Of a stretch of DNA of 60,191 bases, positions 8,182 through 60,191 are shown one piece after another (position 1 is the stretch's first letter; each line of letters starts with the position of its first letter). The stretch spans positions 1 through 60,191 of the forward strand of contig CALLQC010000003.1 of the NCBI GenBank assembly GCA_938015255.1, given 5' to 3'. The stretch is from an uncultured Erythrobacter sp. (GTDB lineage: Bacteria; Pseudomonadota; Alphaproteobacteria; Sphingomonadales; Sphingomonadaceae). Below the pieces are notes generated by a model. It was given only the letters and a program-made list of their open reading frames with translations. It did no database searches and was not told the DNA's origin. A program made the translations under genes and the position numbers.

Positions 8182-8231
8182 GCTGCATTGAAGGCAGCCT
8201 AAAAGCAGCTAAGAGCGACACAGACCGATCC

Positions 8232-9221
8232 ATGCCAGTCCTGATGCCACCAGAATGGGCGCCGCAAGACTGGCTGTGGATCGGCTTCCCCCATCTGGCC
8301 GAGGAATGGCCCGGTTTCCTTGAACCAGCCCAGAAACAGATCGCCGATTTCGCCAGCGCTGTTGCGGAGAGTGGTCAGCAGGTTCGACTGCTGGTCCGCG
8401 ATGAGTCCAATGAAGCGCGCGCCCGCTCGCTTGTCAGTGACAAGGTCGTGTTGGAACGGCGGGCTTACGGCGATATCTGGTTGCGAGACACTGGGCCGCT
8501 TATTGTCTCCGGCACTTCGGGCCGCGAAGCGCGGCGTTTCGCCTTCAACGGGTGGGGCGGCAAATACGAAATGCCAGGCGATGAAACCATCGGCGCCGCG
8601 CTGGCGCGGGATGCCGGTTTGCCACTCGAGACATCGCCAATGACACTCGAGGGCGGGGCGATTGACGGAGACGGAACCGGTCTTGTCGCCACCACCGAAC
8701 AATGCCTGCTCAATCCCAACCGCAACCCGGATATGGATCGCGACCGGATCGAAGCAGACCTTCATGCGCAGCTCGGCTTTGACAGGTTCCTGTGGCTTGG
8801 TGACGGATTGATAAACGATCACACAGATGGCCATGTCGATAATCTGGCCCGGTTTGCGGCGCCAAACCGATTGGTCCTGCCCGAGGCGACGGGTCGTGAT
8901 GATCCCAACGCCGCGATTTACGCCGATGCCGCCGCGCGCGCGCATTCATTTGGTGTTGACGTGGTCCGCATTCCGTCCCCCGGACGGATAGAGCGCGGCG
9001 GAAGCATAGAGCCGGCAAGCTACGTCAATTTTGCGATTACGACGCATCTTGTCGTGGTGCCGACCTTTGCTTCGCCCCATGACGCTGCCGGAGTGGCCGC
9101 AATTGCCGCCCTGTTTCCCGATCGCGAAACCATCGGCCTGCCCGCAAATGCCGTGCTTGCAGGCGGCGGCGGGTTTCACTGCGCGAGCCAGCAAATGCCC
9201 GCCGCCCCTGACAAGCCTTAA
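8232..9221 (+). CDS. Agmatine deiminase family protein (PAD_porph)
   Basis: This guanidine-modifying enzyme of the agmatine deiminase/Porphyromonas-type peptidylarginine deiminase family probably converts agmatine to N-carbamoylputrescine and ammonia in the cytoplasm. With the start at 8232 it has 329 residues. Family motifs are present: DIWLRDTGP, LEGGAIDGDG, HTDGHVDN and the C-terminal GGGGFHCASQQ with the nucleophile at C317. The second motif has Ala where many homologues have Ser. The open frame begins at 8175, overlapping the M28 stop, but residues before MPVLMPPEW look unlike the family; an ATG at 8244 is also possible. Co-transcription with the M28 gene is likely. Confidence 0.88.
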   Translation: MPVLMPPEWAPQDWLWIGFPHLAEEWPGFLEPAQKQIADFASAVAESGQQVRLLVRDESNEARARSLVSDKVVLERRAYGDIWLRDTGPLIVSGTSGREARRFAFNGWGGKYEMPGDETIGAALARDAGLPLETSPMTLEGGAIDGDGTGLVATTEQCLLNPNRNPDMDRDRIEADLHAQLGFDRFLWLGDGLINDHTDGHVDNLARFAAPNRLVLPEATGRDDPNAAIYADAAARAHSFGVDVVRIPSPGRIERGGSIEPASYVNFAITTHLVVVPTFASPHDAAGVAAIAALFPDRETIGLPANAVLAGGGGFHCASQQMPAAPDKP

Positions 9222-9256
9222 CGCCTCGTTAGCATTTTGCCGCGAGAATAGCGGGT

Positions 9257-9391
9257 ATGACAAAGGCATTGGCCCTCTCAAAATCCGCACTCAACGCTGC
9301 GCGTATGCGCCGGTTGGAGATTGCGCGCGGTGTGATCGTGTTGGGCTGCGGCGCGGCACTTATCCTCGCGGGGCAGCCCCTGCCGCTGTAA
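9257..9391 (+). CDS. Possible small membrane protein, 44 residues
   Basis: A short frame starts with MTKALALSKSALNAARMRR and continues into a hydrophobic stretch with GVIVLGCGAALILAG, ending in PLPL. This gives a basic amphipathic N-terminus followed by one possible transmembrane helix. It lies in the gap between the agmatine-deiminase-like gene and the DUF1223 gene, on the same strand. The ribosome binding site is weak. I do not recognise a family. It could be a real small protein or chance. Confidence 0.3.
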   Translation: MTKALALSKSALNAARMRRLEIARGVIVLGCGAALILAGQPLPL

Positions 9392-9472
9392 CTGCCTGAT
9401 CGAAGCAGTCGTAACTTTCCAAAAGCAGGTGACGAACATCTCATCAAGCCGAAGGTTTGAAAGAGGTTCACC

Positions 9473-10225
9473 ATGCGCACCGCGATATACTCCCTGGCAG
9501 TGATGGCCGCGAGCATTGCGGCCGTATTGGCCGCTTTGCCAAGCTTTGGACGCGCGCAGATCGACCGGACCCCGCATACCGGCGAACCGGTCCTCATCGA
9601 ACTTTTCACCAGTCAGGGTTGCTCCTCATGCCCCCCTGCTGATCGGCTGGCGCAGCGACTCTCCAAGGAACCCGGCCTTGTCGTTATCTCAAGGCCGGTT
9701 GATTACTGGGACAGGCTCGGCTGGAAAGACACCCTCGCCAGCCCCGAAAACACCGCGCTCCAACGGGCTTATGCTGCACGCGGACTTGCCGGTTACAACG
9801 GGGTCTACACACCGCAATCTGTCGTAGCCGGGCGCTTTGGTGAAGTGGGATCGGATGAAAGAAAAATTCGCCAGTTCGTGAAACGCTCCGCTGCTGAGAA
9901 TGATGCCGTATTGCGGATCCGAGGGTCAGCAGAGCGCGGCTACGGAGCGGGTATCAGCGGAACGATATCCGGCACTGCGCAGCTGATCCTTGTGGGCGTC
10001 TCCAGCCGCGAGAATATTGATATCAGACGCGGAGAAAATCGCGGGCGGCAAATCTCTTATACCAATGTGCTTGTCGGCGAGCGTAAGCTTACGACGTGGC
10101 GCGGCAGCACCCAGGGTGAAGGTATCCGGCTGTCACAGCTCGATATGGAAGGGGCAGACAAATACGCGCTGATCCTGCGCCGGTCATCTGGCGGGGAGGT
10201 TCTGGCTGCAACCTGGATTGATTGA
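9473..10225 (+). CDS. DUF1223 domain-containing thioredoxin-like protein, exported
   Basis: The 250-residue protein belongs to DUF1223, a thioredoxin-fold family found mainly in alphaproteobacteria. Residues 1-28 form a signal peptide ending at GRAQ. The fold's active-site motif is C50-S-S-C53 within FTSQGCSSCPPAD, and DYWDRLGWKD follows, typical of the family. A periplasmic thiol-disulfide role is a reasonable inference, but no substrate is known. It has a convergent neighbour, the TSUP permease, only five bases after its stop. Confidence 0.88.
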   Translation: MRTAIYSLAVMAASIAAVLAALPSFGRAQIDRTPHTGEPVLIELFTSQGCSSCPPADRLAQRLSKEPGLVVISRPVDYWDRLGWKDTLASPENTALQRAYAARGLAGYNGVYTPQSVVAGRFGEVGSDERKIRQFVKRSAAENDAVLRIRGSAERGYGAGISGTISGTAQLILVGVSSRENIDIRRGENRGRQISYTNVLVGERKLTTWRGSTQGEGIRLSQLDMEGADKYALILRRSSGGEVLAATWID

Positions 10226-10230
10226 GGCGC

Positions 10231-10917
10231 CTAAAGCAGCTTCGCCAATGCTCCCAAAGCCGCAGCTCCCAATACGCTCGCCGTTGCAACCTGCCACTGC
10301 ATCGCGGTGACCCGGCCGAATGCGCGGTGGCCGAACCAGTCACCAATCAATACGAACGGGAACAGGGCAAGCGCCAGAGCCGCTTCGCGCCAGCTGCCCA
10401 CACCCAGCGTGATAAAGAACAGCGCCGATAGCGGTGTGACGATCACAAAAATTGCCATCATCGAAGCACGCGCCGCCTTCGGTTCCAATTTCCCGCGCAG
10501 ATAGAACGGCGCCATACCCGGCCCCGGCATTCCGGCAAATCCGCCGAAAAAGCCGGTCGCGAATCCCGAAACCATCAGCGCAGGCCGGCGCGAAAGCGTG
10601 ACTTTGCCCAGCGGTACGACCACCAGAACAAACGCTCCCAAGGAAACCAGCGCGATCAGAATTCGCGCCCAGTCAACGGGCAGCGCGACCAAAGCCCACA
10701 GGCCCAGCGGCATGCATAACAGCGCGATTGCGGTCAAAGGCATAACACTCTTGTCTGCATCGCGCCGGATGCGACCGATATCAGTCAGCCCGATCAGAAA
10801 CAGCGATACAATACCCACCAAAACCGCGGCCGCCGGTTCGATTGCCAACTGGAGCACTGGAACCAGCACAACCGAGAGGCCAAAACCCGCAAGCCCGCGG
10901 ACAAAACCGGCTGCCAA
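10231..10917 (-). CDS. TSUP (TauE/SafE) family membrane permease
   Basis: This is a sulfite/organosulfur-exporter-type permease with about seven hydrophobic segments. The family signature is near the start, AGFVRGLAGFG, and recurs in the second half as ATGFFGGFAGMPGPG. As called from the TTG at 10917 it has 228 residues. That start cuts into the first helix: the frame stays open and clearly hydrophobic upstream to about 10983 (encoding FGFAIEAVLIAALTA), bounded by an in-frame TGA at 10986-10984. No ATG, GTG or TTG lies in that stretch. An ATC at 10965 follows AAAAGG at good spacing and may be an unusual start. The gene follows thrS with almost no gap, so it is probably translated from the thrS message. 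Confidence 0.82.
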   Translation of the reverse strand: MAAGFVRGLAGFGLSVVLVPVLQLAIEPAAAVLVGIVSLFLIGLTDIGRIRRDADKSVMPLTAIALLCMPLGLWALVALPVDWARILIALVSLGAFVLVVVPLGKVTLSRRPALMVSGFATGFFGGFAGMPGPGMAPFYLRGKLEPKAARASMMAIFVIVTPLSALFFITLGVGSWREAALALALFPFVLIGDWFGHRAFGRVTAMQWQVATASVLGAAALGALAKLL

Positions 10918-10978
10918 AGCCGTGAGTGCAGCGATCAGAACCGCTTCGATTGCGAACCCGAAGATGGCGGAGACCTTT

Positions 10979-12979
10979 TCAAATCAAAAGATCGGGCGGA
11001 GTTGCCGCCTTGATCAACATCGCCATCGCCTCGTCGAGGGTGAGGACCTGCTGATCCTTTTCACCCAGCGTTCGCATAGTGACTTTGCCTTCTTCCGCCT
11101 CGCGTTTCCCGACCACCAGAATATGCGGAACCTTGGCCAGCGAATGCTCGCGGACTTTGTAGTTGATCTTCTCGTTGCGCAGGTCGGCATTCACGCGGAT
11201 GCCGGCAGCCTCCAGTTTCGCTCTCACTTCTTCGGCATAGCCATCAATGTCGGACACGATCGGCGCCACAACAGCCTGAACCGGTGCGAGCCAGACCGGC
11301 ACCTTGCCCGCGAAGTGCTCGATAAGGATGCCGATGAAGCGCTCATAGGAACCAAAGATCGCACGGTGCAGCATGACCGGGCGATGTTTGTCGCCATCCT
11401 CGCCGATATAGGTCGCATCGAGCCGTTCGGGCAGCACCCGGTCGGACTGGATCGTGCCCACCTGCCAGGTACGGCCGATTGCGTCGGTCAGATGCCATTC
11501 GAGCTTGGGCGCATAAAACGCGCCCTCGCCCGGCAGCTCTTCCCAGCCGAATTCTTCGGTGGCCATGCCAGCCTCGACCACGGCATCACGCAGTTCCTGT
11601 TCCGCCTTGTCCCAATCCTCGTCAGAGCCAAAACGTTGCTCTGGACGGGTCGCCAGCTTGATTTCGTATTTGAAGCCGAAATCCTTGTAGACGCCGTCGG
11701 CCAGCTCGCAGAATTTGCGCACTTCCTCGACCACCTGCGCCTCGGTACAGAATATGTGCGCATCGTCTTGCGTGAACTGGCGCACGCGCATCAGACCGTG
11801 CAGCGCGCCATGCGGTTCGTTGCGGTGGCAGCAGCCCATCTCGCCCAGCCGGATCGGCAGATCGCGATAGGATGTGATGCCCTGTTTGAAGACGAGGACA
11901 TGCGCGGGGCAGTTCATCGGCTTCAACGCCATCCAGTCCGCTTCGCCGCTGATGACAGGGCCGTCATCTTCGGTATTGGGAACCTCGTCCGGGATCACGA
12001 ACATGTTCTCGCGGTATTTGCCCCAGTGTCCCGATTGCTCCCACTGGCGCGCATCCATGACCTGCGGCGTCTTGATCTCGCGGTATCCGCCGCCGTCCAT
12101 CTTGCGGCGCATGTAGCTCTCGAGTTCACGCCAGATCCGGTAGCCCTTGGGATGCCAGAACACGCTGCCATGCGCGACATCGGAAAGGTGGAACAGGTCC
12201 ATCTCCCGGCCAAGCTTGCGGTGATCGCGCTTGGCAGCTTCCTCCAGATTATGCAGATGCTGCTTCAGCTGTTTCTTGTTAAGCCACCCAGTGCCGTAAA
12301 TGCGGGTCAGCTGGGCGTTGCGTTGATCGCCGCGCCAGTACGCACCGGCGACGCGCATCAGTTTGAACGCATCGGGATCAAGCTTTCCGGTTGAGGCAAG
12401 GTGCGGACCGCGGCACATATCGAGCCAGTCATCGCCGGACCAATAAACCGTCAGCTCCTCGTTTTCAGGCAATTCCTTGGCCCATTCGGCCTTGAACGTT
12501 TCGCCTTCGGATTCCCACTTGTCGATCAATTGCTGGCGGGACCAGACCTCGCGGCGCAGCGGTTTGTCCGCCTTGATGATCTCACGCATCTTCGCCTCGA
12601 TATCAGGCAGGTCTTCGCTGCTGAACGGTTCGCGGCTGGCCGGTGCCATCACGTCGTAGTAAAATCCATCACCGGTCGCCGGGCCAAAGGTGATCTGCGT
12701 GCCTGGATAAAGCGCCTGAACCGCTTCGGCGAGAACGTGCGCGTAGTCATGCCGGGCGAGTTCGAGCGCGTCTGCCTCGTCTCTTGAAGTGATCAGGGCA
12801 AGCTCGGCGTCGCCTTCGAACGGGCGATTGAGGTCGCGCACTTCGCCATCCACCCGCGCTGCGAGCGCGGCCTTGGCAAGGCCCGGCCCAATCGCGGCGG
12901 CGATATCGGCCGGGGTAGAACCCGCCTCCACTTCGCGGACTGAGCCATCGGGCAGGCTGATCTTGAGCAGTTCGGTCAT
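10979..12979 (-). CDS. thrS: Threonine--tRNA ligase
   Basis: The enzyme charges tRNA-Thr in the cytoplasm and edits mischarged Ser-tRNA. It has 666 residues with the canonical order: N-terminal TGS domain ([20 protein letters not shown]), editing domain with the [10 protein letters not shown] motif, class II catalytic core with [11 protein letters not shown] (zinc Cys) and [11 protein letters not shown], and a C-terminal anticodon-binding domain around [12 protein letters not shown]. The frame is open to 13018, but the ATG at 12979 (MTELLKISL) has GGAAC upstream and matches the usual N-terminus. The TSUP permease follows directly. Confidence 0.97.
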
Positions 12980-13107
12980 TATTTCGTTCCAAATCTCATA
13001 TGCCGCGCGCCCTGCCACAAGCGGGCGCGCACCGAAAGAGCGGTGTGTCGTTTTGCCGATTTCAGGAGGCCACCGCGCCGCCCGAAACCGGGCGGCACTG
13101 GCTGCGA

Positions 13108-13251
13108 TTAAACCGCGACCAACCGCCCCCGGACATCCGAGGTGGTAGTTGTCGCCGTCATCGTGATCAGCAGCTTGGCCATGGGCAGCAAATAGGACGA
13201 CACACGCAGTTTGTCACCCGACAAGTGCCAATAGGAAAGCGTGCGCTCCAT
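13108..13251 (-). CDS. Doubtful small ORF, 47 residues
   Basis: A minus-strand frame starts [14 protein letters not shown] and ends in GRLVAV. It is divergent from the XRE/membrane-protein operon and its start codon overlaps the operator-like repeat there. No Shine-Dalgarno sequence, signal peptide or known motif is visible. I list it only because it would account for a divergently used promoter region. Confidence 0.15.
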
Positions 13252-13305
13252 TATGGAAAGCCTACTTGACAATTGCGCGAGTCAATGACAAGTATCCTTT
13301 CCATA
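13252..13305 (+). promoter_or_regulatory. Promoter and candidate operator of the XRE operon
   Basis: A sigma70-like promoter has TTGACA (13266-13271), an 18-bp spacer and AAGTAT (13290-13295). It is flanked by a perfect 9-bp inverted repeat, TATGGAAAG (13252-13260) and CTTTCCATA (13297-13305). A second inverted repeat, TTGAC/GTCAA (13266-13270 and 13281-13285), covers the -35 box. The last gene of the operon encodes an XRE-type DNA-binding protein, so autorepression from these sites is likely. RBS AAGGGAG (13310-13316) follows. Confidence 0.6.
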
Positions 13306-13325
13306 GTTGAAAGGGAGCTTTCCTT

Positions 13326-13502
13326 ATGAGCAAGAATTTCCAAGCCCTTCTGTGGGCCAGCATTATCATCACCGCCGCCATCATCATGAATCTGCAAGGG
13401 GTTAGCGACAATGCCAGCATAGGCGTCGTCCTGGGTCTCAGCGGAGCCGCCTGGGGGTCGCTGCAAACCGATGCCGGATGCGGGCGCGGGTGCCTGTCAT
13501 GA
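13326..13502 (+). CDS. Small membrane protein, first gene of the XRE operon
   Basis: The 58-residue product begins MSKNFQALLWASIIITAAI and has two short hydrophobic stretches, about residues 8-22 and 31-46, ending in a Gly/Cys-rich tail (CGRGC). RBS AAGGGAG lies nine bases upstream. Its stop overlaps the next gene's start as ATGA, which strongly supports translation. No family recognised. It starts a four-gene overlapping operon that ends in an XRE regulator. Confidence 0.6.
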   Translation: MSKNFQALLWASIIITAAIIMNLQGVSDNASIGVVLGLSGAAWGSLQTDAGCGRGCLS

Positions 13503-14098
13503 CCGTGCGGCCTTTTAATCCGGACAAACTGGCGCTTTCACTCGCCGGTTCATCCGTTCTGAGCGCGCTGGGCGTGATGTTCCTGTGGAAGTCCGGCGCA
13601 TTTGAAACCGAGCCCGCCTATCTGCTGACGCTGCTTCCGGTGGCGCTGGTCGTCACCTCCATAGCGACGAGCTTCCGCAAGCGCGAAAAGCCCGCCTCCG
13701 CCTCGCACCGTTATTTGGGCCGCATGGCGATTGTGATGGCGTTCTATCTCGTCACATTGTTTCTGGCCGAGCACTGGATCGACAATGAAGGGCTGACCGG
13801 GCCGCTCGCAGTTATCCTCGCGCTGCTGCCCGGCCTGTCTTTTGCGGGCGTGGTCTGGATATTCGGCGGGCTGATCGTCGAGGAGAAGGACGAGTTTTAC
13901 CGCATGCTGTTTGTCCGGCAGGGCCTGATCGCCACTGCCATTTCCTTCACGCTCGCCGCGGTCTGGGGCTTTCTGGAAACCTACGGCCAGGTCGATCCCG
14001 TCGCCGCGTTCTGGTGGCCTACGATCTGGTGCTTCGGCCTCGGCATCGGTGCGGTTTTCAACAAGGTTAAATTCGGCACCTACGGAGAGATCAGATGA
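13499..14098 (+). CDS. Polytopic membrane protein of unknown function
   Basis: The 199-residue protein has about six predicted helices and no signal-peptidase site. Its central-to-C-terminal part contains EEKDEFYRMLFVRQGLIAT and AAVWGFLETY, which align with EYQRMLFVKQ and VWSFLKTY of the next gene, so the two are diverged paralogues. The acidic patch followed by YRMLFVRQ looks like a cytoplasmic loop motif of the family. The ATG at 13499 overlaps the previous stop by four bases; the frame is open a little further upstream but the overlap and operon logic favour this start. I cannot name a function; similar membrane proteins are commonly paired with short XRE regulators. Confidence 0.75.
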   Translation: MTVRPFNPDKLALSLAGSSVLSALGVMFLWKSGAFETEPAYLLTLLPVALVVTSIATSFRKREKPASASHRYLGRMAIVMAFYLVTLFLAEHWIDNEGLTGPLAVILALLPGLSFAGVVWIFGGLIVEEKDEFYRMLFVRQGLIATAISFTLAAVWGFLETYGQVDPVAAFWWPTIWCFGLGIGAVFNKVKFGTYGEIR

Positions 14099-14484
14099 GC
14101 ATGGCCCCGTACATGAAGAGCTATACCAAACGGCTCGCATTTTTCATGTTTGCCTATGTTGTGATCCTGATCGGCGGTTTGAGTTACCACCGCGCGAGCG
14201 AACCGCCCGAATTAGTCTCAACCGGCCTGGCGCTTCTCACTGCTCTCCCGATCTGCGGGGTATTCTGGACGATCTATCGTTTGCTGATCGAGTGCGATGA
14301 CGAATATCAGCGCATGCTTTTCGTGAAGCAGGTGATAGGCGCCACCGGAGCCACCTTGGTGATAACGACGGTGTGGAGCTTTCTCAAAACCTATGACGTG
14401 CTGGCATTCGGTCCTCAATGGGTGGCTGTGATTTGGTTCGCGATGCTTGGCTTTGCTGGGCCGATTGTGCGGTGGCGCGCATGA
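14095..14484 (+). CDS. Membrane protein paralogous to its upstream neighbour
   Basis: The 129-residue protein has four predicted helices and repeats the loop motif of the previous gene: IECDDEYQRMLFVKQ followed by VWSFLKTY. It lacks the N-terminal helix pair of the longer paralogue. Both ends overlap neighbours by the four-base ATGA (14095-14098 and 14481-14484), showing tight translational coupling across the operon. Function unknown; a hetero-oligomer with the upstream product is a natural guess. Confidence 0.78.
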   Translation: MSMAPYMKSYTKRLAFFMFAYVVILIGGLSYHRASEPPELVSTGLALLTALPICGVFWTIYRLLIECDDEYQRMLFVKQVIGATGATLVITTVWSFLKTYDVLAFGPQWVAVIWFAMLGFAGPIVRWRA

Positions 14485-14672
14485 ACAATCGCCTTAAAGT
14501 GCTGCGTGCCGAGCGTGACTGGTCACAGCAAGACCTGGCTGAACGGCTTGAAGTGAGCCGCCAGAGCGTGAATGCCATCGAAAAAGGGCGGTATGATCCC
14601 TCACTTCCGCTGGCTTTCAAGATCGCCGATGTCTTCGAGCTGACCATCGAGGAGATTTTCAGCCGCAGGTGA
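14481..14672 (+). CDS. XRE-family helix-turn-helix transcriptional regulator
   Basis: This 63-residue repressor consists only of a Cro/C1-type HTH: LKVLRAERDWSQQDLAERL, then VSRQSVNAIEKGRYDPSLP as turn and recognition helix, and a short C-terminal helix ending in SRR. It belongs to the small single-domain class often linked to membrane-protein genes. It overlaps the preceding gene by ATGA; the longer open frame upstream is not coding. It probably controls its own operon through the repeats at 13252-13305. Confidence 0.88.
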   Translation: MNNRLKVLRAERDWSQQDLAERLEVSRQSVNAIEKGRYDPSLPLAFKIADVFELTIEEIFSRR

Positions 14673-14693
14673 AAGCGATTGGCACACGTGAAA

Positions 14694-14727
14694 ACGGGGC
14701 TGGCGCATCATTGTGCACCAGCCCCGT
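14694..14727. terminator. Bidirectional terminator between convergent genes
   Basis: A perfect 10-bp stem, ACGGGGCTGG (14694-14703) with CCAGCCCCGT (14718-14727) and a 14-base loop, lies between the XRE gene (ending 14672) and the convergent small membrane gene (ending 14750). Only a short A-rich run precedes it and no clear T-run follows on plus, so it may serve both strands weakly. Confidence 0.6.
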
Positions 14728-14749
14728 ATTGTCACAATTCAGTCGCGCC

Positions 14750-15010
14750 TTAGGCAGTTGCTGGCTGCGGAACGCTTGCCACCGGTGCCGTTTCCGGATT
14801 GGTCGGTTCGGGTTGGCTGTCATCCTTCTTGTCGAGGTATTTCTTCGCCAGATAGCCGCCTGCGCCAATCGCCAGCATGGCTGGCAGGCTGATGCGGCTC
14901 AAAACAAACGGGGCGGCTGCACCGAGCATCGCGCCGGTTGTACCGCCAACCGATTTGGTTTGTTGCGCGATCTTTCCGCCGAGTGCGGCTCCAATAATTT
15001 TACCAAGCAT
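14750..15010 (-). CDS. Small membrane protein with a glycine-zipper-like N-terminus
   Basis: The 86-residue protein begins MLGKIIGAALGGKIAQQ, has a glycine/alanine-rich hydrophobic segment (about residues 20-35), a second helix near LPAMLAIGAGGYLAKKYL, and a Pro/Glu/Thr-rich tail. The start at 15010 has AAAAGGAG directly upstream; the frame is open to 15034. No named family is certain. It is convergent with the XRE operon and follows the PhoD gene on the same strand. Confidence 0.7.
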   Translation of the reverse strand: MLGKIIGAALGGKIAQQTKSVGGTTGAMLGAAAPFVLSRISLPAMLAIGAGGYLAKKYLDKKDDSQPEPTNPETAPVASVPQPATA

Positions 15011-15097
15011 TTCAATCTCCTTTTGCCTAACCAACGCAGGAGAAGGGCCTGAGGTTCCGAGATTTCACCGGACTCACGGCCCGGCCTGCCGCGCGGA

Positions 15098-16762
15098 TCA
15101 CACCTCTAGCGCACCCGATTTTGCATCGCTCGATACCCGCTTCGTGGAGGCAAGCGTGGTTGATCGCCGCTTGATCGATTGGACAAACCTGTATTCGGTC
15201 GTTGCGCGCGCCGGGGTCAGCTCAACAGCCATATAGCCGCGCTGCGAGGTGTCGGCCCATTTCAGCTGACGGTTCGCCGCGACCGCAGAGCGGGCAAAAT
15301 CGGCCGGAGGGATGGCAGAAAGCGAAAATTCAAGACCGGGTGACGAAACGCCCGGAACTCCAAATTCCACCCCCGCTTTTGCCCCGCCATAATCAAGCTC
15401 GAATGCCCAGCCATTATGGGTATCGCCGGTCAGCACCAACAGGTTCGCATCCGCTTCCAGAACATGGCTCAACAATCGCTCGCGCGCTGCAGGATAACCA
15501 TCCCACGCATCCATGTTGGCAGGCAGACCAGCGTGCCCGGCCAGCCCTGCAGCCTGCAATCTGCGGCGGAGCCAGGCAGGCATATCGTCTGTGAGCGCAT
15601 CGAGCACACTTGCAGGCGTCATCAACTCGCCCATCAGCACCTGTTGTACCAGCACCTGCCACGTTGTCCCGCGCGCGGTCGAGGCGGCAAGAGCCGCCGC
15701 GAGCCACTGTTCCTGCGCCTCGCCCAGCAATTGCCGGTCCGGGTCCGCCCATTCGCCATTTTTGAAAGCCTGCAAAGCGGCAAGCGCCGAGGCAGGATCA
15801 GTCTTGCCCTCCAGCACGCGCCCGAGGTCAAATTGTTCTTCTCGCCCCTCCAGCCTTGTGTCGAGCCGGAAGAGTGTGGCCAAATCGCCAACCTGATAGG
15901 CAGCATAGGGCTCGTCCGACACTGGCATCCATTCGCGGTATGCGCGTTTGGCCGCTGTCTTTCGTACATTCCAATCGCCTTCGGTTTCGCTCTGGTGGTT
16001 TTGGGCGCCTCCTTCCCAACTGTCATTTGTGCTTTCGTGATCGTCCCATACAGCGATCATCGGCAGCACCTGATGCAGGCGCCTCAAATCGGGGTCGGAG
16101 CGGTAGGTTGCGTAACGCAGCCGGTAATCTGCGAGCGCAACAATCTCGCTTTCGGGGCTAAGCACACGGTCGGGGTTCGCATCGTCAGGCCCGGGATAGG
16201 TTCCAGCGCCATACTCGTAAATGTAATCGCCCAGATGCACGGCGAGATCGCAATCGTTTACCTCTGCAGCGTGGCTATAGGCGTTGAAATAACCAAAGCC
16301 GAAATTGGAGCAGGAGAAAACCGCGAGCTTGAAGTGTTGCGCTGGCCCCTTTGGCAATGTGCGTGTGCGACCGATGTCGGAGACCGAGCCATCGGGTGCG
16401 ACAAAACGGAAGTAATACCAGCTGTCAGGAGCAAGAGTGCTGGCAGTCGCCTTCACGCACCAATCCCGGTCTGGCGAGGCTATGGCTGTGCCTTCCGCGA
16501 CCACGCGCGAAAAATCGCTGTCTTCGCTGATCTGCCATTCGATCGGCGTTTCGGCATCTGCGACAAACCGGGTCCACAGCAGCACGCTGTCCGCGTGCGG
16601 CTCGCCGCTCGCGACCCCGTGGGTGAAACCACCGCCAAAACCGCGCGCTATCGCAGGGCTGGCTGCGAGCGCTGCCGATGCTCCTGCAAGACTGAATAGA
16701 CCTCGGCGCGAGATAGCCGCTTTCGGTTTGACGGGCGGCGCAGCCGGTTCATTCTTCATCAT
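15098..16762 (-). CDS. phoD: Alkaline phosphatase D family protein, Tat-exported
   Basis: This is a PhoD-type phosphodiesterase/phosphatase that would release phosphate from esters in the periplasm. With the start at 16762 it has 554 residues. The N-terminus carries a Tat signal, ISRRGLFSLAG, followed by an Ala-rich hydrophobic core to AIARG. The metal-binding motifs of the family are present: FKLAVFSCSNFGFGYFNAY, AVHLGDYIYEYG, AVWDDHES and, near the C-terminus, VLTGDTHNGWAFEL. GGAGAG lies six bases before the ATG at 16762 (a second ATG follows at 16759). The frame is open to 16864, but that part would overlap the divergent hydrolase gene. No Pho box was identified. Confidence 0.92.
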   Translation of the reverse strand: MMKNEPAAPPVKPKAAISRRGLFSLAGASAALAASPAIARGFGGGFTHGVASGEPHADSVLLWTRFVADAETPIEWQISEDSDFSRVVAEGTAIASPDRDWCVKATASTLAPDSWYYFRFVAPDGSVSDIGRTRTLPKGPAQHFKLAVFSCSNFGFGYFNAYSHAAEVNDCDLAVHLGDYIYEYGAGTYPGPDDANPDRVLSPESEIVALADYRLRYATYRSDPDLRRLHQVLPMIAVWDDHESTNDSWEGGAQNHQSETEGDWNVRKTAAKRAYREWMPVSDEPYAAYQVGDLATLFRLDTRLEGREEQFDLGRVLEGKTDPASALAALQAFKNGEWADPDRQLLGEAQEQWLAAALAASTARGTTWQVLVQQVLMGELMTPASVLDALTDDMPAWLRRRLQAAGLAGHAGLPANMDAWDGYPAARERLLSHVLEADANLLVLTGDTHNGWAFELDYGGAKAGVEFGVPGVSSPGLEFSLSAIPPADFARSAVAANRQLKWADTSQRGYMAVELTPARATTEYRFVQSIKRRSTTLASTKRVSSDAKSGALEV

Positions 16763-53236: not shown

Positions 53237-53406
53237 ATCTGTCCTGTGTGCCTGTGACGCGTGCGTTAACTGCCATAATTGCGCCTATTTGTCACATTCG
53301 TTCGCACCGCACGGAAGGTTACATCGGACCACGCGGCAATTTTGCAACCTTGTGCCCGTGTGAAATTCGTATGGCATCCAGCCTTTCACGCGGTATGGTC
53401 CGCGAT

Positions 53407-54612
53407 ATGCTGACCACATCCATTCTCGATTCCGCCCGCGCCATGGCTCCCGACATTGTTGCACTGCGCCGCGCTATCCATGCCGAGCCAGAGCTTGGCC
53501 TGCACACCCCGATGACGATGGCCAAAGTGCGCGAGGCGCTCGCCGATCTCCCGCTTGAATGGAAAGAGGGCCGGTCCACCACAGGCCAGGTTGCGACCCT
53601 GCGTGGAAACAAAGCGACCGAAGGTGCACCCCGCGTACTGCTTCGCGGAGACATGGATGCGTTGCCGATGGAGGAAAAGACCGGTCTGGAATTCGCCTCC
53701 ACGATACCTGGCCGTATGCACGCCTGCGGCCACGACACTCACACAGCCATGCTGGTCGGGGCGGCCCGGCTGCTGGCTGATCGCAAGGACGAGCTTACAG
53801 GAACGGTCGATTTCATGTTCCAGCCGGGTGAAGAAGGGCATCACGGCGCGCGCTACATGCTTGATGACGGGCAGATCAATCCGCTGCCCGATGCTGCCTT
53901 TGCGCTTCATATTATGCCTAACGCACCGTTTGGCGTGTTGGCAGGGCGGGCTGGGCCGCTTATGGCGGCGGCTGATCAATTCACCATCACCGTCAAAGGC
54001 CGAGGCGGTCATGCCTCAATGCCGCACGACTGTGCTGATCCAGTGCCCGCCGCAGCGGCTATTGTGGGTGCGATCCAGGCGATGGTGACCCGGCGTTTCA
54101 AGGCAACCAATGCTGTGGTGGTCACAGTGACGCAAATCCACGCAGGCACCGCGCACAATGTCATTCCTGACGAGGTGATGCTGGGCGGCACTATCCGCAC
54201 ACTTTCCGCAGACCATCGTGACAAGATCCACGGCCTGATCCGCGAAACCGCGAGCCAGACTGCAGCGGCATACGGTGTCGAAGCGGACTGCGAACTTGAA
54301 CTGGGTTTCCCAGTGACGGTGTGTGACGCGCGCGCTGTTGCGTTGGGACAAAAGGTCGCCATGCAGCTAGGCGGCGAGCAGGGCTGGCGCAATTTGACGG
54401 ACCCGATCATGGGCGCGGAGGATTTTTCCTACCTGCTGGAAAAGGTGCCAGGCGCGATGTTTTTCCTTGGTGTCGCGCCAGAGGGGGAAGACTGGACCCA
54501 ATGCTGCGCCATCCACTCCCCGCGCATGCATGTTGACGAAAGCGCGCTTCCCCATGGGGCAGCGATGCTCGCCGGCTGCGCGATCGAGTATTTCGAAAAC
54601 GGGTTTGCGTAG
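53407..54612 (+). CDS. M20 family metallopeptidase/amidohydrolase (hippuricase type)
   Basis: This cytoplasmic di-zinc amidohydrolase releases acyl groups from amino acids. With the start at 53407 it has 401 residues. Metal and catalytic motifs are present: LRGDMDALPMEEKTGLEF, MHACGHDTHTAMLVG, FQPGEEGHHGA and LHIMPNAPFG; a dimerisation insert follows (VKGRGGHASMPHD). ATGs at 53371 and 53394 are also in frame; none has a strong ribosome site, and 53407 best fits the family's N-terminus (LRRAIHAEPELG follows). It is the last housekeeping-like gene before the AT-rich gap. Confidence 0.9.
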   Translation: MLTTSILDSARAMAPDIVALRRAIHAEPELGLHTPMTMAKVREALADLPLEWKEGRSTTGQVATLRGNKATEGAPRVLLRGDMDALPMEEKTGLEFASTIPGRMHACGHDTHTAMLVGAARLLADRKDELTGTVDFMFQPGEEGHHGARYMLDDGQINPLPDAAFALHIMPNAPFGVLAGRAGPLMAAADQFTITVKGRGGHASMPHDCADPVPAAAAIVGAIQAMVTRRFKATNAVVVTVTQIHAGTAHNVIPDEVMLGGTIRTLSADHRDKIHGLIRETASQTAAAYGVEADCELELGFPVTVCDARAVALGQKVAMQLGGEQGWRNLTDPIMGAEDFSYLLEKVPGAMFFLGVAPEGEDWTQCCAIHSPRMHVDESALPHGAAMLAGCAIEYFENGFA

Positions 54613-54883
54613 AATCGCAAGGCCTCGGCCCGCCATCGCCCATCAGGTGTAAATCGGATTAGTTGAATTACTTATGCGCACAACCGCGCGTGATTTAAAT
54701 AGCGCATTATTTCAATGCTTTAACGAAATTTTCTTTTAATACTTTGGTCAGCAGTCCGACTAAAGCCATCATATTTACTGACGGATTCATACAATAAGAC
54801 CGCTTCTCTTGGGGTTAAGGTAAAATTTGTGTTAATTTAAGCGCTATTGATTTGGGACGCACGGAAATGGGGGGCCGTCGTCT
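54613..54883. other. AT-rich intergenic region before the CHAT gene
   Basis: This 271-bp stretch is visibly AT-rich compared with the surrounding GC-rich genes, with runs such as GAAATTTTCTTTTAAT and GGTAAAATTTGTGTTAATTTAAG. No gene or certain -35/-10 pair is seen. It is likely the promoter region of the CHAT-hydrolase unit and may mark the boundary of an acquired block. Confidence 0.5.
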
Positions 54884-57800
54884 ATGCCTTCGAACTGGAG
54901 AATCCGCATCGGGCCGGGAAAGGATCGGACGTTTGACGTCCACCTTGACTATCATGGCGCGCAAAAAGGCGGTCACGGATTTTCCAGGCATTTTCCCGAC
55001 CATCTTTCCGGTTTGGAGATCGACGGTGTCGGCGCAGGCAGGCGCAGGAGGAAACTTCCGCTCGCCGAAATCCCTGCCGCTGATGATGACACGCGCTCAA
55101 TTGATGAACAGCTGGCCGCTGCAGTCACGCTCGATGATGTCAGCAAAGTGGGAAAGGAGTTGTTCGAAAAGCTCTTCCACGGCGAAGACGATGTGTCGCC
55201 TCTCTCCTCTTTTAGAACGCTTTACAGCACACTTGAGCAGCAGCAGAACGGGGACGAAAACTGCATCATCCTTTGGATAGACAGCAGCGAGGCGGGCGAG
55301 CTCAGAGGTATCCCTTGGGAAGCGCTGTGGGACCCCGGCAAGAAAACGTTTCTGGCAACCGATGTAAACGCCAACATCGTTCGCGCGCTTGACCCTGCAT
55401 ATGAAGGGGCGCGGCTCGAAAACCCTATTCCCGGCAAGATCCGAATGCTCGTGGCGGTTGCCAATCCCACTGCGGATCTCGCGACCGGCACCGAAATAGC
55501 AAACATAAAGGGATTGCTCGAAAAGCTCAGGGCGCAAGGCGAGGAGCTGTTCGACCTCAGGGTTATCGAGCAGGCCACCAGGTCAAACCTTGGCGATGAA
55601 ATCGCCGACTGGGCACCGCATATCGTCCATTACATCGGTCATGGCGGCTTCGAAGATGAAGAGGGCTTGATCTACCTGCATGACGAAGACGATCCGGACC
55701 ACAAGGATGCCGTAAGCGCAGAGACATTGCGGCAGATGCTGCAGACAAATCGCCCCTGGATGGTGGTGCTCAACAGCTGTCTGGGCGGCACGTCTTCGCG
55801 GTTCGATCCATTTTCCGGCGCAGCACAGAACCTGCGTCTGCTCGACATCCCGTTCGTGATTGCGATGCAATATTCGATCTCGGACGATGCGGCGATCGCC
55901 TTTTCCCGGCGGCTCTATTCCCAGCTTGCAAAGGGCCGGCCGGTCGCACGCGCGGTCAGCGATGCACGCGGAGCTATCGCCACTCTTAAATATGAAGATG
56001 CGCGGATCGAGCTGGTCACGCCGGTTCTGTATGCGACTGACAAATATGATCGCCTTCCGCTCGCGCAGCTCGTCGTCCCGCCGCCTGTGGTCGACGATGC
56101 CGGAGCCGGCGGCGATAGCGAAAAAGAGGGGCGGGCTGATCGCTGGCTGGGTCGCACGGCAGCGATTGCGGGCATTCTTGGCCTCCCGATTGCGGCGATT
56201 GGCCTGTACCTTTCCATAGGAGCACTGGGAGAAGAGGCTGCAGATGACCCTGCTGCCGATGCAAATGCCGGGGAGAGTGCAACCAATGGCTCGCAAAACC
56301 CTGATGGCGGGCGCGGAAGCGCAGGCGATCGCGGCGATACAGCGACCTCCGGAGATACCAATTCCGGCGGCAGTCAGGCCGGATATGACCCTTACATAGG
56401 GGGCAGTTCCGGGGGTGGGGGCGGCCGCGGCCCCGCGTCGACTGGAGGAGGCGATCCGGAATTTTACGTGTGCCCTGACGGGACCGAAGTCGGGTGGGAC
56501 GAGGCATGTCCCGACATAAGCGGTGTCCCTGTCGTGATTGAGAGGGTCAGCGGCTATCAGCGCGATCCTCGCGCGGATGTAAACCCGAACTACACTCCGC
56601 CCGGCACAGCGGCGTACCCAGCCCCGCCTCCACCGCCCCCTCCGCCAACTCCGCCGCCTCCGCCACCTCCGCCGCCCTGCAATACGGGCCCGTTCATTCT
56701 GTTTTTCGATCACCAAAGCGCGCAGATCACACCTCAAGGCAGCGCCATTATCGACAATGCCTTGGCAGCGATTGGCAATTGCGGGCGCGCTTCAATCATG
56801 GTTGCCGGGCATGACGACGCCGATGGATCGATGCAGGAAAGCCTGCGGATCTCACAGGAACGCAGCGCCCGCGTTATCGAGGCTTTATCGAGGCGCGGCG
56901 TCGATCCCGCACGTGTTGCAAGCGAGGCATTCGGCGAGAGCATGCTGCGGGTTCCGACTGCAGACGGGGTTCGCGAAGCCCAGAACCGTCGGGTTGAAAT
57001 CACCTTCGGGCCTCCGCCCCCGCCAACCGAGGCTGAAATACTGGCACAAGCCGCAGAACGCCGCTGGTCGGCGATCCAAAGGCTCGGCGAGGCAATCGAA
57101 AGCCTGGGCGATGTGCGCCGCTCTGACCCGGGCAACACTCTTTTCCCTCTTACGGACGAGAACGCCGGCGAAAGCTACTGGGATGTCAGCAAACGGCTGG
57201 AGAATGAAGCCGAAACGCTATGGGATGCGGAATACGGCACGGTTTATGCTGACCGCGCCGCGTATGAGGCGAGCACCCGCGAGATCGAAGCCATGCGCGC
57301 CCGCATCATCCGCTACCGGACGGTGTATGAAAGGGCGGCACGTGAAAGGCGCAGCCGATTGGCTGAAGATTTCGGCTCCATCATCATTGCCATGCATGAT
57401 CGCAGAGATCTGGTGCTCGAAATCACTTCGCCATACGCACCGGGTCAGGATCGACTCCAGGCGCTTTGCGAAGGACTGAAACTTCGCGATGATTTGCTGA
57501 CCCGCATTGAAAGGGCAGCCTATCTTTTCTCCACCTTCGAAGTGCGCGAAGACACAGCAGCAGCGTGCGATCAATCGCCGAGTGAAGACGACGCAAGTGT
57601 CCAATGGCAGGATCCAGACTATTCTGCAGTCATCGCAGAGGGCGGCCATCCGATTACCGTGGAACGAATTGAAGTGCGCACAAGCGAGCGCATTTTTGCC
57701 GAGCCTGCCTATGCCGATATCCCCCTTGGCTCCCGGATCGAACTGCGCCTGAGGATCGAAGACGCAAAATTCGGCCACTTCGAACGCCGAACTGCATCAC

Positions 57801-58237
57801 TGAAACCGGAGGGCGAAACCATAGCAGCCCGTGTTTCAGACTGGCTTGATGAGGGGCAAACGCGCCATGCAGCGCGATTGGCCGAGAAGTGCCGTGCAAC
57901 CGGCCTGTTCTGCAATGATACAGACGCGAGATTGGCAAACACACTCGCGCTTGAAGCCCCGCCCAGTCCCGCAAATTCGGGCAGCCTGGAAATTCAGCTG
58001 GCGACCGCGCGGCTTGCGTCGACCGAACAGGCGATTGCAGCCAGCATGGACACGCGAGCACGGCTCACCGCGACACTGTGCCGTGCGCCCTGGATGCCGA
58101 TCGCCGCAGGTCAAGCCACCGCATCGCAAGGCACAGAGATCAGCGTGAAGCCAAATACGGTCACATTCTTCCTGGATCGATGCGTACCGCTGATGGAGCG
58201 GCAGACCACCATCACCGGTCAGGACAGAGAACCTTGA
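54884..58237 (+). CDS. CHAT protease fused to a transmembrane helix and OmpA-like domain
   Basis: The 1117-residue protein joins parts not usually seen together. About residues 80-390 form a CHAT domain, a clan CD cysteine protease related to caspases and separase, with the catalytic His in HYIGHGG (H253) and Cys in LNSCLGG (C299). A basic patch GRRRRKLP lies near residue 52. One helix (AIAGILGLPIAAIGLYLS, about 426-446) follows, then a Gly/Asn-rich stretch, a small Cys-containing segment (FYVCPDG), a polyproline linker (about 580-600) and an OmpA-like peptidoglycan-binding domain (about 603-709: FFDHQSAQITPQGSAIID and RISQERSARVIEALSRRGV). The last 400 residues are helical and unassigned. 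The expected topology is CHAT inside and OmpA in the periplasm. It is followed by a hydrolase gene in 46 bases. Known bacterial CHAT proteins act in defence and cell-death systems; a similar role here is inference. Confidence 0.85.
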   Translation: MPSNWRIRIGPGKDRTFDVHLDYHGAQKGGHGFSRHFPDHLSGLEIDGVGAGRRRRKLPLAEIPAADDDTRSIDEQLAAAVTLDDVSKVGKELFEKLFHGEDDVSPLSSFRTLYSTLEQQQNGDENCIILWIDSSEAGELRGIPWEALWDPGKKTFLATDVNANIVRALDPAYEGARLENPIPGKIRMLVAVANPTADLATGTEIANIKGLLEKLRAQGEELFDLRVIEQATRSNLGDEIADWAPHIVHYIGHGGFEDEEGLIYLHDEDDPDHKDAVSAETLRQMLQTNRPWMVVLNSCLGGTSSRFDPFSGAAQNLRLLDIPFVIAMQYSISDDAAIAFSRRLYSQLAKGRPVARAVSDARGAIATLKYEDARIELVTPVLYATDKYDRLPLAQLVVPPPVVDDAGAGGDSEKEGRADRWLGRTAAIAGILGLPIAAIGLYLSIGALGEEAADDPAADANAGESATNGSQNPDGGRGSAGDRGDTATSGDTNSGGSQAGYDPYIGGSSGGGGGRGPASTGGGDPEFYVCPDGTEVGWDEACPDISGVPVVIERVSGYQRDPRADVNPNYTPPGTAAYPAPPPPPPPPTPPPPPPPPPCNTGPFILFFDHQSAQITPQGSAIIDNALAAIGNCGRASIMVAGHDDADGSMQESLRISQERSARVIEALSRRGVDPARVASEAFGESMLRVPTADGVREAQNRRVEITFGPPPPPTEAEILAQAAERRWSAIQRLGEAIESLGDVRRSDPGNTLFPLTDENAGESYWDVSKRLENEAETLWDAEYGTVYADRAAYEASTREIEAMRARIIRYRTVYERAARERRSRLAEDFGSIIIAMHDRRDLVLEITSPYAPGQDRLQALCEGLKLRDDLLTRIERAAYLFSTFEVREDTAAACDQSPSEDDASVQWQDPDYSAVIAEGGHPITVERIEVRTSERIFAEPAYADIPLGSRIELRLRIEDAKFGHFERRTASLKPEGETIAARVSDWLDEGQTRHAARLAEKCRATGLFCNDTDARLANTLALEAPPSPANSGSLEIQLATARLASTEQAIAASMDTRARLTATLCRAPWMPIAAGQATASQGTEISVKPNTVTFFLDRCVPLMERQTTITGQDREP

Positions 58238-58283
58238 ACCCAGCGGCAATGCGCCGAGAATCCGCAAGGCAGGAGCACTGAAA

Positions 58284-60191
58284 ATGGCAATTGAAATCGG
58301 CAGAGGCGTCAGCTTTGAAGCTGGCGAGGATTTCACCATTGAAAATGCCGGTATAGGCGGGCGCCGAAGCAGGCGTTCTGCGCTCAACACCGGAAGCGAA
58401 GAGGCTGATGTCGATCTGGCCCTGCGCGATGCTGATTTCGAACTGGCTGCCGATATCAATGTCATTCCCGCCCGCTCACCCAGCAGGAGCCGGCGAAGCA
58501 CCGCAGATATCGCTTCGTCTCCACAACTCGAAGTCGACCTCCAGGAAGAGCAGGGCGCGGTCCTCCTAATCGAGCAACAGGGCGGCGTATTCCGCTGGAG
58601 CTGGCCGGAAGAATATCAGGAACCCCAGCGGGGTCGCCGCAGTACCGGGACCGCAAAAACTGCGGTGTTTGACCTTTCGCCCGGCGAACTTGCAAACGAT
58701 GATCCATCAGGAGAAAAGCCGCGCCAGCGCCGGGGCCTCTCGCTGGGCGGATGGATTGGCGACAAGCTGATCGAACCCATCCGGGTCCGCGTGCTTCGCT
58801 TCGTTGCCGAGAAAGCCATTGATAAGGCCATCGCGAAAATTGAAGGCGATCTGGTTGAGCAGCCACTGACGCTGAATGCTGATACGGGCGCCTGGGAGCC
58901 GGGCCTGCCGACCTTGCCGACAGAGCGCCGGAATAAGGTGCTGTTGATGGTTCACGGCACCTTTTCGACCACTGAGGGAAGCTTTGGCGGGATCGCTCAA
59001 ACCGAGCTTGGCCGATCCTTCCTTTCGCGCGCCTTGCAGGATTACGACGCGATCATTGGATTTGATCACAAAACGCTCGCCAAAACCCCAATGGAGAACG
59101 CGTCCGCGATCCTGCAGGAACTCGCCAAGCTGCCGGATGAGACCGAAATCGATGCTATCGCATTCAGTCGCGGGGGATTGGTGCTGCGCGCAGTCGAGCT
59201 GGCAGCGGGTGAAGACGGCAGACAACTGGACTTTGATCGCGCAGTGTTCGTTGGTTGCACCAATTCAGGCACCTTGCTCGCCAATCCGGAAAACTGGCAC
59301 GCGCTGGTCGATCTTTACACGACCATTGCTGTTGCGGCAGTGAAAGCGATTTCCAGCGCAGCAGGCTTTGGCGGCTTCAACCCTGCCAGTTTCGTGATCA
59401 AAACCATCGGGCGTTTCGTCAAGGTGCTGCCAGAGGTTGCGATTGATGACGGTAAAATTCCCGGCCTCCAAGCAATGCAGCCTGGCAGCGATCTGCTGGC
59501 AGAAATTGCAACGCCCGCCGCCTCGCTTGAGAGATATCGAGCCATCACATCTGATTTCCGCCCGGTCCTGGATGTCAAGCGCGGCCTTACTGCCGAAGTG
59601 GTGGAGTTCATCGGCAATCGGATCGGTGACCGGTTTTTCAACGAGGCGAATGATTTGGTCGTCAACACCGCATCCATGACCAGGTTCGGCCAAGCAGGCA
59701 CTCTGCCGAGCAGCCAGGTGAAAGTCTTGGAGCGTGGGACGCAGATCTATCATACGATCTATTTCACCGAGCCAAGCACTATTGAGGCGGCAGCCGGTTT
59801 TCTGTTTCCCGAAGATGAGGCCACTGCCGAGGCACCACTAGCATCTCCGCCGCCATCGCCGCCCCCGACCTCCCCGGCGCCGCGGCGTCGCCGGAGTCGG
59901 CGAAGCGCTAGCCCCCGGCCCGCTGCTCCCCCGCAGACGGTCGGCCACACTCCGTCAGCCTTGCCCGGTTTGCCAGAGGCGGATTTCGCGTCCGATGGTT
60001 CAGCGCAATGGGACGGCATGGAAGAAACGGCAGCGCCGGATGATGCAGCTGCGCCGGTGCAATGTCATTTTGCCGCCCAGATGGAGGCCGACCCGCCCGT
60101 TTCCCGCCCGGTGAAGTTGGGGGTGACGATTTCTCCCGAAACGATCGAACTGGTCGCTGGCCAGACGATGGATACGACATCCGCTCCTGCC
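58284..60191 (+). CDS. Large alpha/beta-hydrolase-like protein (partial), partner of the CHAT gene
   Basis: At least 636 residues are visible; the gene continues past the window. AGGAG lies nine bases before the ATG. The N-terminal 200 residues are charged and contain no clear fold. A hydrolase domain spans about 215-500: the oxyanion turn VHGTF (H224) and the nucleophile elbow AFSRGG (S295), a Ser-Arg-Gly-Gly form seen in DUF7379-type and PGAP1/lipase-like proteins. The acid and His are not assigned with confidence. A Pro/Ser/Arg-rich linker (about 510-560) and a beta-like C-terminal segment (KLGVTISPETIEL) follow. Arg-Arg-Ser motifs recur: RRSRRSA at 27-33 and 536-542, SRRST at 69-73, GRRST at 117-121. 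Co-transcription with the CHAT gene is likely; a lipase, esterase or thioesterase effector is plausible but not shown. Confidence 0.75.
   Translation, partial: MAIEIGRGVSFEAGEDFTIENAGIGGRRSRRSALNTGSEEADVDLALRDADFELAADINVIPARSPSRSRRSTADIASSPQLEVDLQEEQGAVLLIEQQGGVFRWSWPEEYQEPQRGRRSTGTAKTAVFDLSPGELANDDPSGEKPRQRRGLSLGGWIGDKLIEPIRVRVLRFVAEKAIDKAIAKIEGDLVEQPLTLNADTGAWEPGLPTLPTERRNKVLLMVHGTFSTTEGSFGGIAQTELGRSFLSRALQDYDAIIGFDHKTLAKTPMENASAILQELAKLPDETEIDAIAFSRGGLVLRAVELAAGEDGRQLDFDRAVFVGCTNSGTLLANPENWHALVDLYTTIAVAAVKAISSAAGFGGFNPASFVIKTIGRFVKVLPEVAIDDGKIPGLQAMQPGSDLLAEIATPAASLERYRAITSDFRPVLDVKRGLTAEVVEFIGNRIGDRFFNEANDLVVNTASMTRFGQAGTLPSSQVKVLERGTQIYHTIYFTEPSTIEAAAGFLFPEDEATAEAPLASPPPSPPPTSPAPRRRRSRRSASPRPAAPPQTVGHTPSALPGLPEADFASDGSAQWDGMEETAAPDDAAAPVQCHFAAQMEADPPVSRPVKLGVTISPETIELVAGQTMDTTSAPA

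Follow-up and report, generated by a model that had tools for sequence, protein, structure and literature searches.

Can a protease that grips the cell wall control a lipase-type enzyme inside the cell? The question is raised by two neighbouring genes at the end of a 60,191-nucleotide stretch of DNA from an uncultured Erythrobacter sp. (assembly GCA_938015255.1, contig CALLQC010000003.1), hereafter the window. Gene A encodes a CHAT protease joined through a membrane helix to an OmpA-like domain, and gene B encodes an alpha/beta-hydrolase that carries a CHAT domain of its own. We propose that A and B form a two-gene, envelope-linked conflict module that works without a nucleoside triphosphatase (NTPase), in which an envelope signal would act on A, A on B, and B as a lipase. 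We give this reading a probability of roughly 40%.

The window is an entire contig (C3 of genome G000, assembled in 185 contigs) and stops within gene B, whose open reading frame (58284-60191, plus strand) has 636 residues and no stop codon. The reading frame runs on in a second contig of the same genome, C95, for 1386 further bases to a stop. We accept this joint on the strength of a 141-base overlap between the contigs, of the same domain order in intact relatives, and of the next gene, a tRNA-Arg that adjoins the same M20-type peptidase gene in a sister genome. The tRNA-Arg (anticodon ccg) lies 19 bases past the end of B on the opposite strand. A and B lie on one strand with 46 bases between the stop of A and the ATG of B, and are a real gene pair, not a chance pair of open reading frames. 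Their features, all on the plus strand, are:

54884-58237 (+): gene A, 1117 residues; CHAT domain, transmembrane helix, low-complexity/polyproline linker, OmpA domain and 405-residue C-terminal region
55217-55990 (+): CHAT domain of A, residues 112-369 (Pfam PF12770, E 1.4e-25)
56162-56218 (+): transmembrane helix of A, residues ~427-445 (hydropathy scan)
56624-56677 (+): polyproline linker of A, residues 581-598 (sequence)
56702-56989 (+): OmpA-like peptidoglycan-binding domain of A, residues 607-702 (Pfam PF00691, E 3.1e-12)
57020-58234 (+): C-terminal region of A past OmpA, residues 713-1117 (predicted periplasmic; low model confidence)
58284-60191 (+): gene B, first 636 of 1097 residues, cut by the contig end; the rest is in G000:C95:142-1527
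58416-58745 (+): DUF7362-like N-terminal domain of B, residues 45-154 (marginal, 27.8 bits against a cut-off of 27.6)
58941-59507 (+): DUF7379 (PF24096) alpha/beta-hydrolase of B, residues 220-408 (Pfam, E 5.1e-57)
59799-60074 (+): Pro/Ser/Arg-rich linker of B between hydrolase and DUF7363, a candidate cleavage region (sequence)
60051-60191 (+): assembly overlap of 141 bases, identical to G000:C95:1-141

The CHAT domain of A scores 90.7 bits against a cut-off of 24, and its catalytic dyad is intact, with H253 in IGHGG (codon 55640-55642) and C299 in NSCLG (codon 55778-55780). This pair is invariant in 11 of 11 aligned A-like sequences, and the predicted structure of the domain has a caspase-type fold. 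The helix that follows is preceded by four Lys/Arg within 20 residues and followed by none within 20. By the positive-inside rule the CHAT domain should thus lie inside and the OmpA domain outside; the structure model places a helix at 414-444 with low confidence. The OmpA domain (47.1 bits, cut-off 27.2) has the PDB relatives YiaD (8.8e-12) and PA0833 (2.5e-10). Aligned to YiaD, it retains the Asp and Arg positions, which we take to be the peptidoglycan binders, while the Asn that precedes them is Ser in A. The polyproline-OmpA stretch (56624-56989) is 52-60% identical to the family's OmpA proteins in the best 15 rows, and the outer part of A looks as if it had been borrowed from a resident OmpA gene. 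A search of 195 other genomes of the order gave no match to residues 713-1117.

Full-length B, read across the joined contigs, has 1097 residues and comprises DUF7362, the DUF7379 hydrolase, DUF7363 and a second CHAT domain. This order recurs in intact relatives of 1102 (L064), 1121 (L198) and 1159 residues (L058). The hydrolase scores 193.4 bits against a cut-off of 33. Its catalytic triad consists of S295 in SRGGL (codon 59166) and, downstream of the Pfam match, D457 (59652) and H490 (59751). Among aligned relatives Ser and Asp are conserved in 85 of 85 and His in 82 of 82, with three gaps; the triad was assigned from this conservation. The model of residues 188-513 has a lipase-type fold. 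In a second structure comparison the top PDB rows were lipases and one phospholipase, and thioesterases and esterases also occur among the matches. Lipase function is predicted from likeness of fold. The C95 part of B matches most of DUF7363 (5.8e-17) and a CHAT domain (9.1e-21, 75 bits against a cut-off of 24) with its His/Cys pair. B is predicted to be soluble. Dibasic runs occur in 29 of 33 B-type linkers, as compared with 20.0 in shuffles, an excess that related rows inflate and that might fit a cleavable linker.

An earlier note on the window, made from the letters alone, had described an intact CHAT protease joined by a membrane helix and polyproline linker to OmpA, and a hydrolase-like protein with a Ser-Arg-Gly-Gly elbow 46 bases on. 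Pfam, the hydropathy scan and direct reading bear out all of these parts, and the structure models agree with both folds. The description was nevertheless incomplete, as B is cut by the contig end and the system has two CHAT domains, not one.

The distribution of the two genes is uneven. The OmpA part of A matches in 119 of 119 family genomes, whereas the CHAT side matches, among the matches listed, in three genomes (G005, G003 and G057) besides the window's own. B matches in three of the 119 (its own genome, G073 and G003), and the A-B pair was found in one. DUF7379 exceeded the cut-off in 19 of 296 genomes of the order, its own included, and a B of comparable score occurs there in G340 only (186 bits, full length). 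A class search of 337 genomes with the first 419 residues of A matched only its own genome and G637 (E 1e-10).

Is the hydrolase coupled to a protease more widely? Conserved linkage was sought in the best 80 of 94 relatives retrieved by the window part of B, with scoring profiles partly built from the same 80 loci. In 62 of the 80 a CHAT or caspase domain is part of the same protein as the hydrolase or lies next to it, in line with the partnership suggested in the earlier note. The CHAT domain is in the same protein in 31 loci and in a same-strand gene within 250 bases in 27, and a caspase is in the same protein in four. Seven further loci have a weak CHAT-like neighbour and one has a CHAT gene 2.9 kb off. 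Thirteen of the 31 CHAT-fused hydrolases also adjoin a caspase gene. Many loci with a fused B show no recognised membrane CHAT.

Several hydrolase loci have neighbours of other kinds. In Ruegeria pomeroyi DSS-3 (L063, NC_006569.1, 9336-16140) a hydrolase-CHAT gene stands 36 bases before genes for a SIR2/PtuA-like ATPase and a PtuB-like protein, in an arrangement reminiscent of Septu. A B homologue stands with trypsin, AAA and transmembrane-OmpA genes in a Caulobacter locus (L067, 9944-18941), and with an AAA gene and a NACHT gene, the latter with a trypsin match just under the cut-off, in a Pseudomonas locus (L066, 405-9217). Another homologue (L070, 9755-18526) has neighbours of similar appearance.

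Membrane-spanning CHAT proteins with wall- or glycan-type outer domains recur beside these hydrolases. An extra A-type CHAT is present in 13 of the 80 loci, and in six of these a membrane helix and an outer domain follow it: two OmpA domains in L119, PD40 in L116, L127 and L142, and CBM9_1 in L134 and L139. L142 holds a second such CHAT, which was left out of the Pfam scan. In the five actinobacterial loci (L116, L127, L134, L139 and L142) the membrane CHAT gene and the CHAT-hydrolase pair are on opposite strands. Beyond these 80, one family locus (L057, G005:C1:738000-757000, 6486-16202) has in a row a CHAT-transmembrane-OmpA gene with two OmpA domains, a caspase-DUF7379 gene, a CHAT gene and an nSTAND1 NTPase gene with a membrane helix. 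The latter three are also present in G073 (L059) and G003 (L060), with no CHAT-OmpA gene in the stretch read. CHAT-transmembrane-OmpA together with a hydrolase is thus seen in three loci, including the window, and a CBM9 or PD40 version in five actinobacterial loci. In the remaining membrane CHATs, Lys/Arg residues before the helix are at least as many as after it.

A reverse search of 378 genomes of the phylum with a profile from eight membrane CHATs matched 31, its own included, the best others being G817 and G859. In the 29 loci read, the CHAT proteins are mostly without a membrane helix. G859 has in a row an A-like CHAT, a hydrophobic protein without a Pfam match and a fused B. Proteins of 527-540 residues with a hydrophobic N-terminus and no Pfam match, encoded at L198 7173-8795 and L197 6049-7632 (both minus strand), adjoin A-like CHATs of 431 and 609 residues.

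The A-B pair occupies the gap between the M20 gene and the tRNA-Arg. To its left lie the flanking gene and the left side of the insertion:

53308-54612 (+): M20-type peptidase gene (Pfam scan), flank of the hotspot and outside the system
54613-54883 (no strand): intergenic DNA upstream of A, 271 bases, GC 0.43 as against 0.59 for the window

In the sister genome G695 the site is empty, with eight bases from the M20 stop to the tRNA-Arg. Twenty genus loci were fetched; nine of them had their open reading frames listed, and two had their proteins run through PADLOC. The M20 gene was found in six of the 20 and not in the stretch read of the other 14. The gap measures about 7.3 kb in G704, 9.9 in G285, 8.5 in G691 and 11.3 in G698, and 1.2 kb in G710. 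A 16-kb element lies at the tRNA-Arg in G713 (L165, 1160-17238), and 16 kb from the tRNA its end recurs as a copy of 51 bases (98%); the element contains Upx and a type II methyltransferase by PADLOC and an integrase-like gene by eye. In G714 a full-length match to BovA (L152 12087-14219, 2e-173), the PADLOC name for what is presumably the Borvo system, lies about 11.5 kb from the same tRNA-Arg, and the tRNA end recurs over 48 bases (94%) at a distance of 24 kb. Search matches place comparable short copies at 5 to 34 kb from that tRNA in G702, G705, G716 and G721. The tRNA-Arg site is a variable hotspot with defence-like genes in two sister genomes. This variability, the empty site and the rarity of the pair speak against a constant housekeeping context, which the earlier note had set against its own proposal. 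The dinucleotide bias of B (0.085) exceeds the maximum of 47 sliding windows of the flank (0.066), whereas A (0.053) is ordinary in composition.

How might the two proteins work together? We envisage A in the inner membrane, with its CHAT domain in the cytoplasm and its OmpA and C-terminal regions on the periplasmic side, anchored to peptidoglycan. B would be a cytoplasmic, latent lipase-type hydrolase with a flexible Pro/Arg-rich linker and its own CHAT. When an entering phage or lysis proteins, for instance, disturb the wall or the inner membrane, A could be altered through tension or lost contact with peptidoglycan. The CHAT domain of A might then become active and cleave or allosterically activate B, and the freed hydrolase would attack membrane lipids, leading to death or a stop of growth before progeny are released. 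We infer each step of this route, from wall to A, from A to B and from B to membrane, from the charges around the helix of A, from published cases and from the dibasic runs in the linkers. In Craspase a CHAT protease serves as transducer and cleaves its partner Csx30 (PMC10028731). Caspase and alpha/beta-hydrolase pairs are read as acting together in the VMAP (MoxR-vWA) ternary systems, and some iSTAND systems are described as having transmembrane-OmpA proteins (Kaur et al. 2020, PMC7159879); alpha/beta-hydrolases are counted among membrane-lipid effectors (Kaur et al. 2021, PMC8195603). An anti-phage role of the pair is suggested by the hotspot and the neighbouring genes. The idea of the earlier note, that an envelope-sensing protease triggers a lipase, is plausible and partly supported by the parts, folds and linkage; the trigger, the cleavage and the substrate we infer.

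Several observations weigh against this proposal. The OmpA domain of A is much like the resident OmpA proteins and might be a mere anchor, and likeness to lipases in fold does not reveal the substrate of B. The position of the dibasic runs varies from linker to linker; related actinobacteria, whose Lys-rich stretches are repeated, supply many of them, and the layout differs in three of the 33 linker rows. A recognised protease partner is absent from 10 of the 80 hydrolase loci, several of them partial or on short contigs. The exact pair of CHAT-transmembrane-OmpA and hydrolase-CHAT was seen in the window only, and the two cases that come closest have other architectures. No OmpA was found in the loci of 29 of the 30 other genomes of the reverse search, read to at most about 1.5 kb on each side with many genes cut, and G817 has an A-like CHAT and a hydrophobic protein with no B in the stretch read. 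No PADLOC model matches the window part of B, the part covered by that scan.

There are rival explanations. The outer domains OmpA, CBM9 and PD40 would suit any envelope signal, and no phage-specific feature was found in A or B. A and B might then serve the host in envelope-stress or cell-death regulation unrelated to phage, A reporting wall damage and B remodelling or degrading membrane lipids. We consider this unlikely, as the pair is patchy and rare, sits in a variable tRNA hotspot and has kin adjoining Septu-like and STAND genes. Alternatively, the signal might come from inside: the CHAT of B or a cytosolic factor would sense, the hydrolase would make or remove an acyl signal, and A would be the executioner, held to the wall by OmpA. 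The predicted solubility of B, its own CHAT, the many fused-B loci without a recognised membrane CHAT and the resemblance of the OmpA module to resident proteins all suit such a scheme. It appears quite unlikely to us, since the recurrent membrane CHATs differ in their outer domain and a plain anchor needs no such variety.

That the two genes are independent cargo and chance neighbours is improbable. Fused B often stands without A, and the bias of B is atypical while that of A is typical, yet the two are 46 bases apart on one strand, CHAT-transmembrane-OmpA accompanies a hydrolase in three loci, and further loci combine an A-like CHAT with a hydrolase-CHAT. The thioesterases and esterases among the structure matches would allow B to regulate A or proteins of the host as an acyl-protein thioesterase or a peptidase-like enzyme and not to be a lipase. 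We regard this as very improbable in view of the lipases and phospholipase at the top of the matches, though fold alone cannot settle it.

How far does the proposed module resemble known systems? As in VMAP systems, a caspase-superfamily peptidase is coupled to an alpha/beta-hydrolase gene (PMC7159879), and TCAD7 was found on the CHAT gene in two split relatives scanned; unlike in VMAP, the peptidase of A continues into a membrane helix and OmpA, and the hydrolase bears a second CHAT. No MoxR or vWA was found among the four proteins upstream of A scanned with Pfam, the downstream genes on C95 being seen as open reading frames only. A transmembrane segment followed by OmpA is shared with iSTAND ternary systems (PMC7159879; compare the Caulobacter locus L067); in A it is CHAT, and not STAND or vWA, that precedes the helix. 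The EACC1-caspase system likewise has two genes, a proposed membrane sensor and a caspase-clan peptidase linked to an effector (PMC7159879). A differs in uniting sensor and peptidase in one protein, the gene 5' of it encodes an M20 peptidase and not EACC1, and it scores 17.7 bits against the EACC1-associated caspase model (cut-off 140). Zorya ZorB, too, is an inner-membrane protein with a periplasmic peptidoglycan-binding domain, which is needed for defence; unlike A, it belongs to an ion-motor complex with ZorA and, in the account given there, has no protease domain (PMC11890865). In PADLOC, A matches at domain level only; its matches to ZorB models cover OmpA alone. With SAVED-CHAT and the TPR-CHAT of Craspase, A shares the CHAT protease fold and the His/Cys pair seen in the structures. 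SAVED-CHAT is not known to have a membrane or wall domain. The signal on which the Craspase protease cuts its partner is target RNA, and no such domain is described for it either (PMC10028731). BovA also has a CHAT domain (residues 509-667) and in G714 is found at the same tRNA-Arg; unlike A-B, it is without OmpA or hydrolase by Pfam.

The kinds of component are thus already known (compare Kaur et al. 2020, PMC7159879), and it is the wiring that appears to be new: as far as our searches show, a membrane-spanning CHAT with exchangeable outer domains is tied to a CHAT-bearing lipase-type fold with no recognised NTPase. In our judgement the sensing of an envelope breach, as against that of intracellular phage nucleic acid or protein, is still mostly open in bacteria. 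If the proposal holds, a wall-gripping protease acting on a lipase across the membrane would be a short, testable route from wall damage to death, and swapped outer domains would point to a general receptor layout. It is possible, on balance doubtful, that these proteins form a receptor family of single, membrane-spanning, caspase-like proteins, in which the outer domain (OmpA, CBM9 or PD40 propeller) is exchanged and the inner CHAT kept. Such receptors would pass their signal to a lipase under CHAT control, with neither NTPase nor second messenger in between. The layout would correspond to that of death receptor, caspase and executioner, in a bacterial version that reads the state of the cell wall.

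Two further kinds of gene accompany fused B homologues. Similar-looking proteins of 252-262 residues are encoded directly 5' of fused B at L058 8221-8979, L068 9057-9818 and L098 9101-9889; the L058 copy, the one scanned, has no Pfam match over the cut-off. Also in L058, a gene of 271 residues (12479-13294) overlaps the end of a B homologue and matches PF07737 with 27.6 bits against a cut-off of 27.4.

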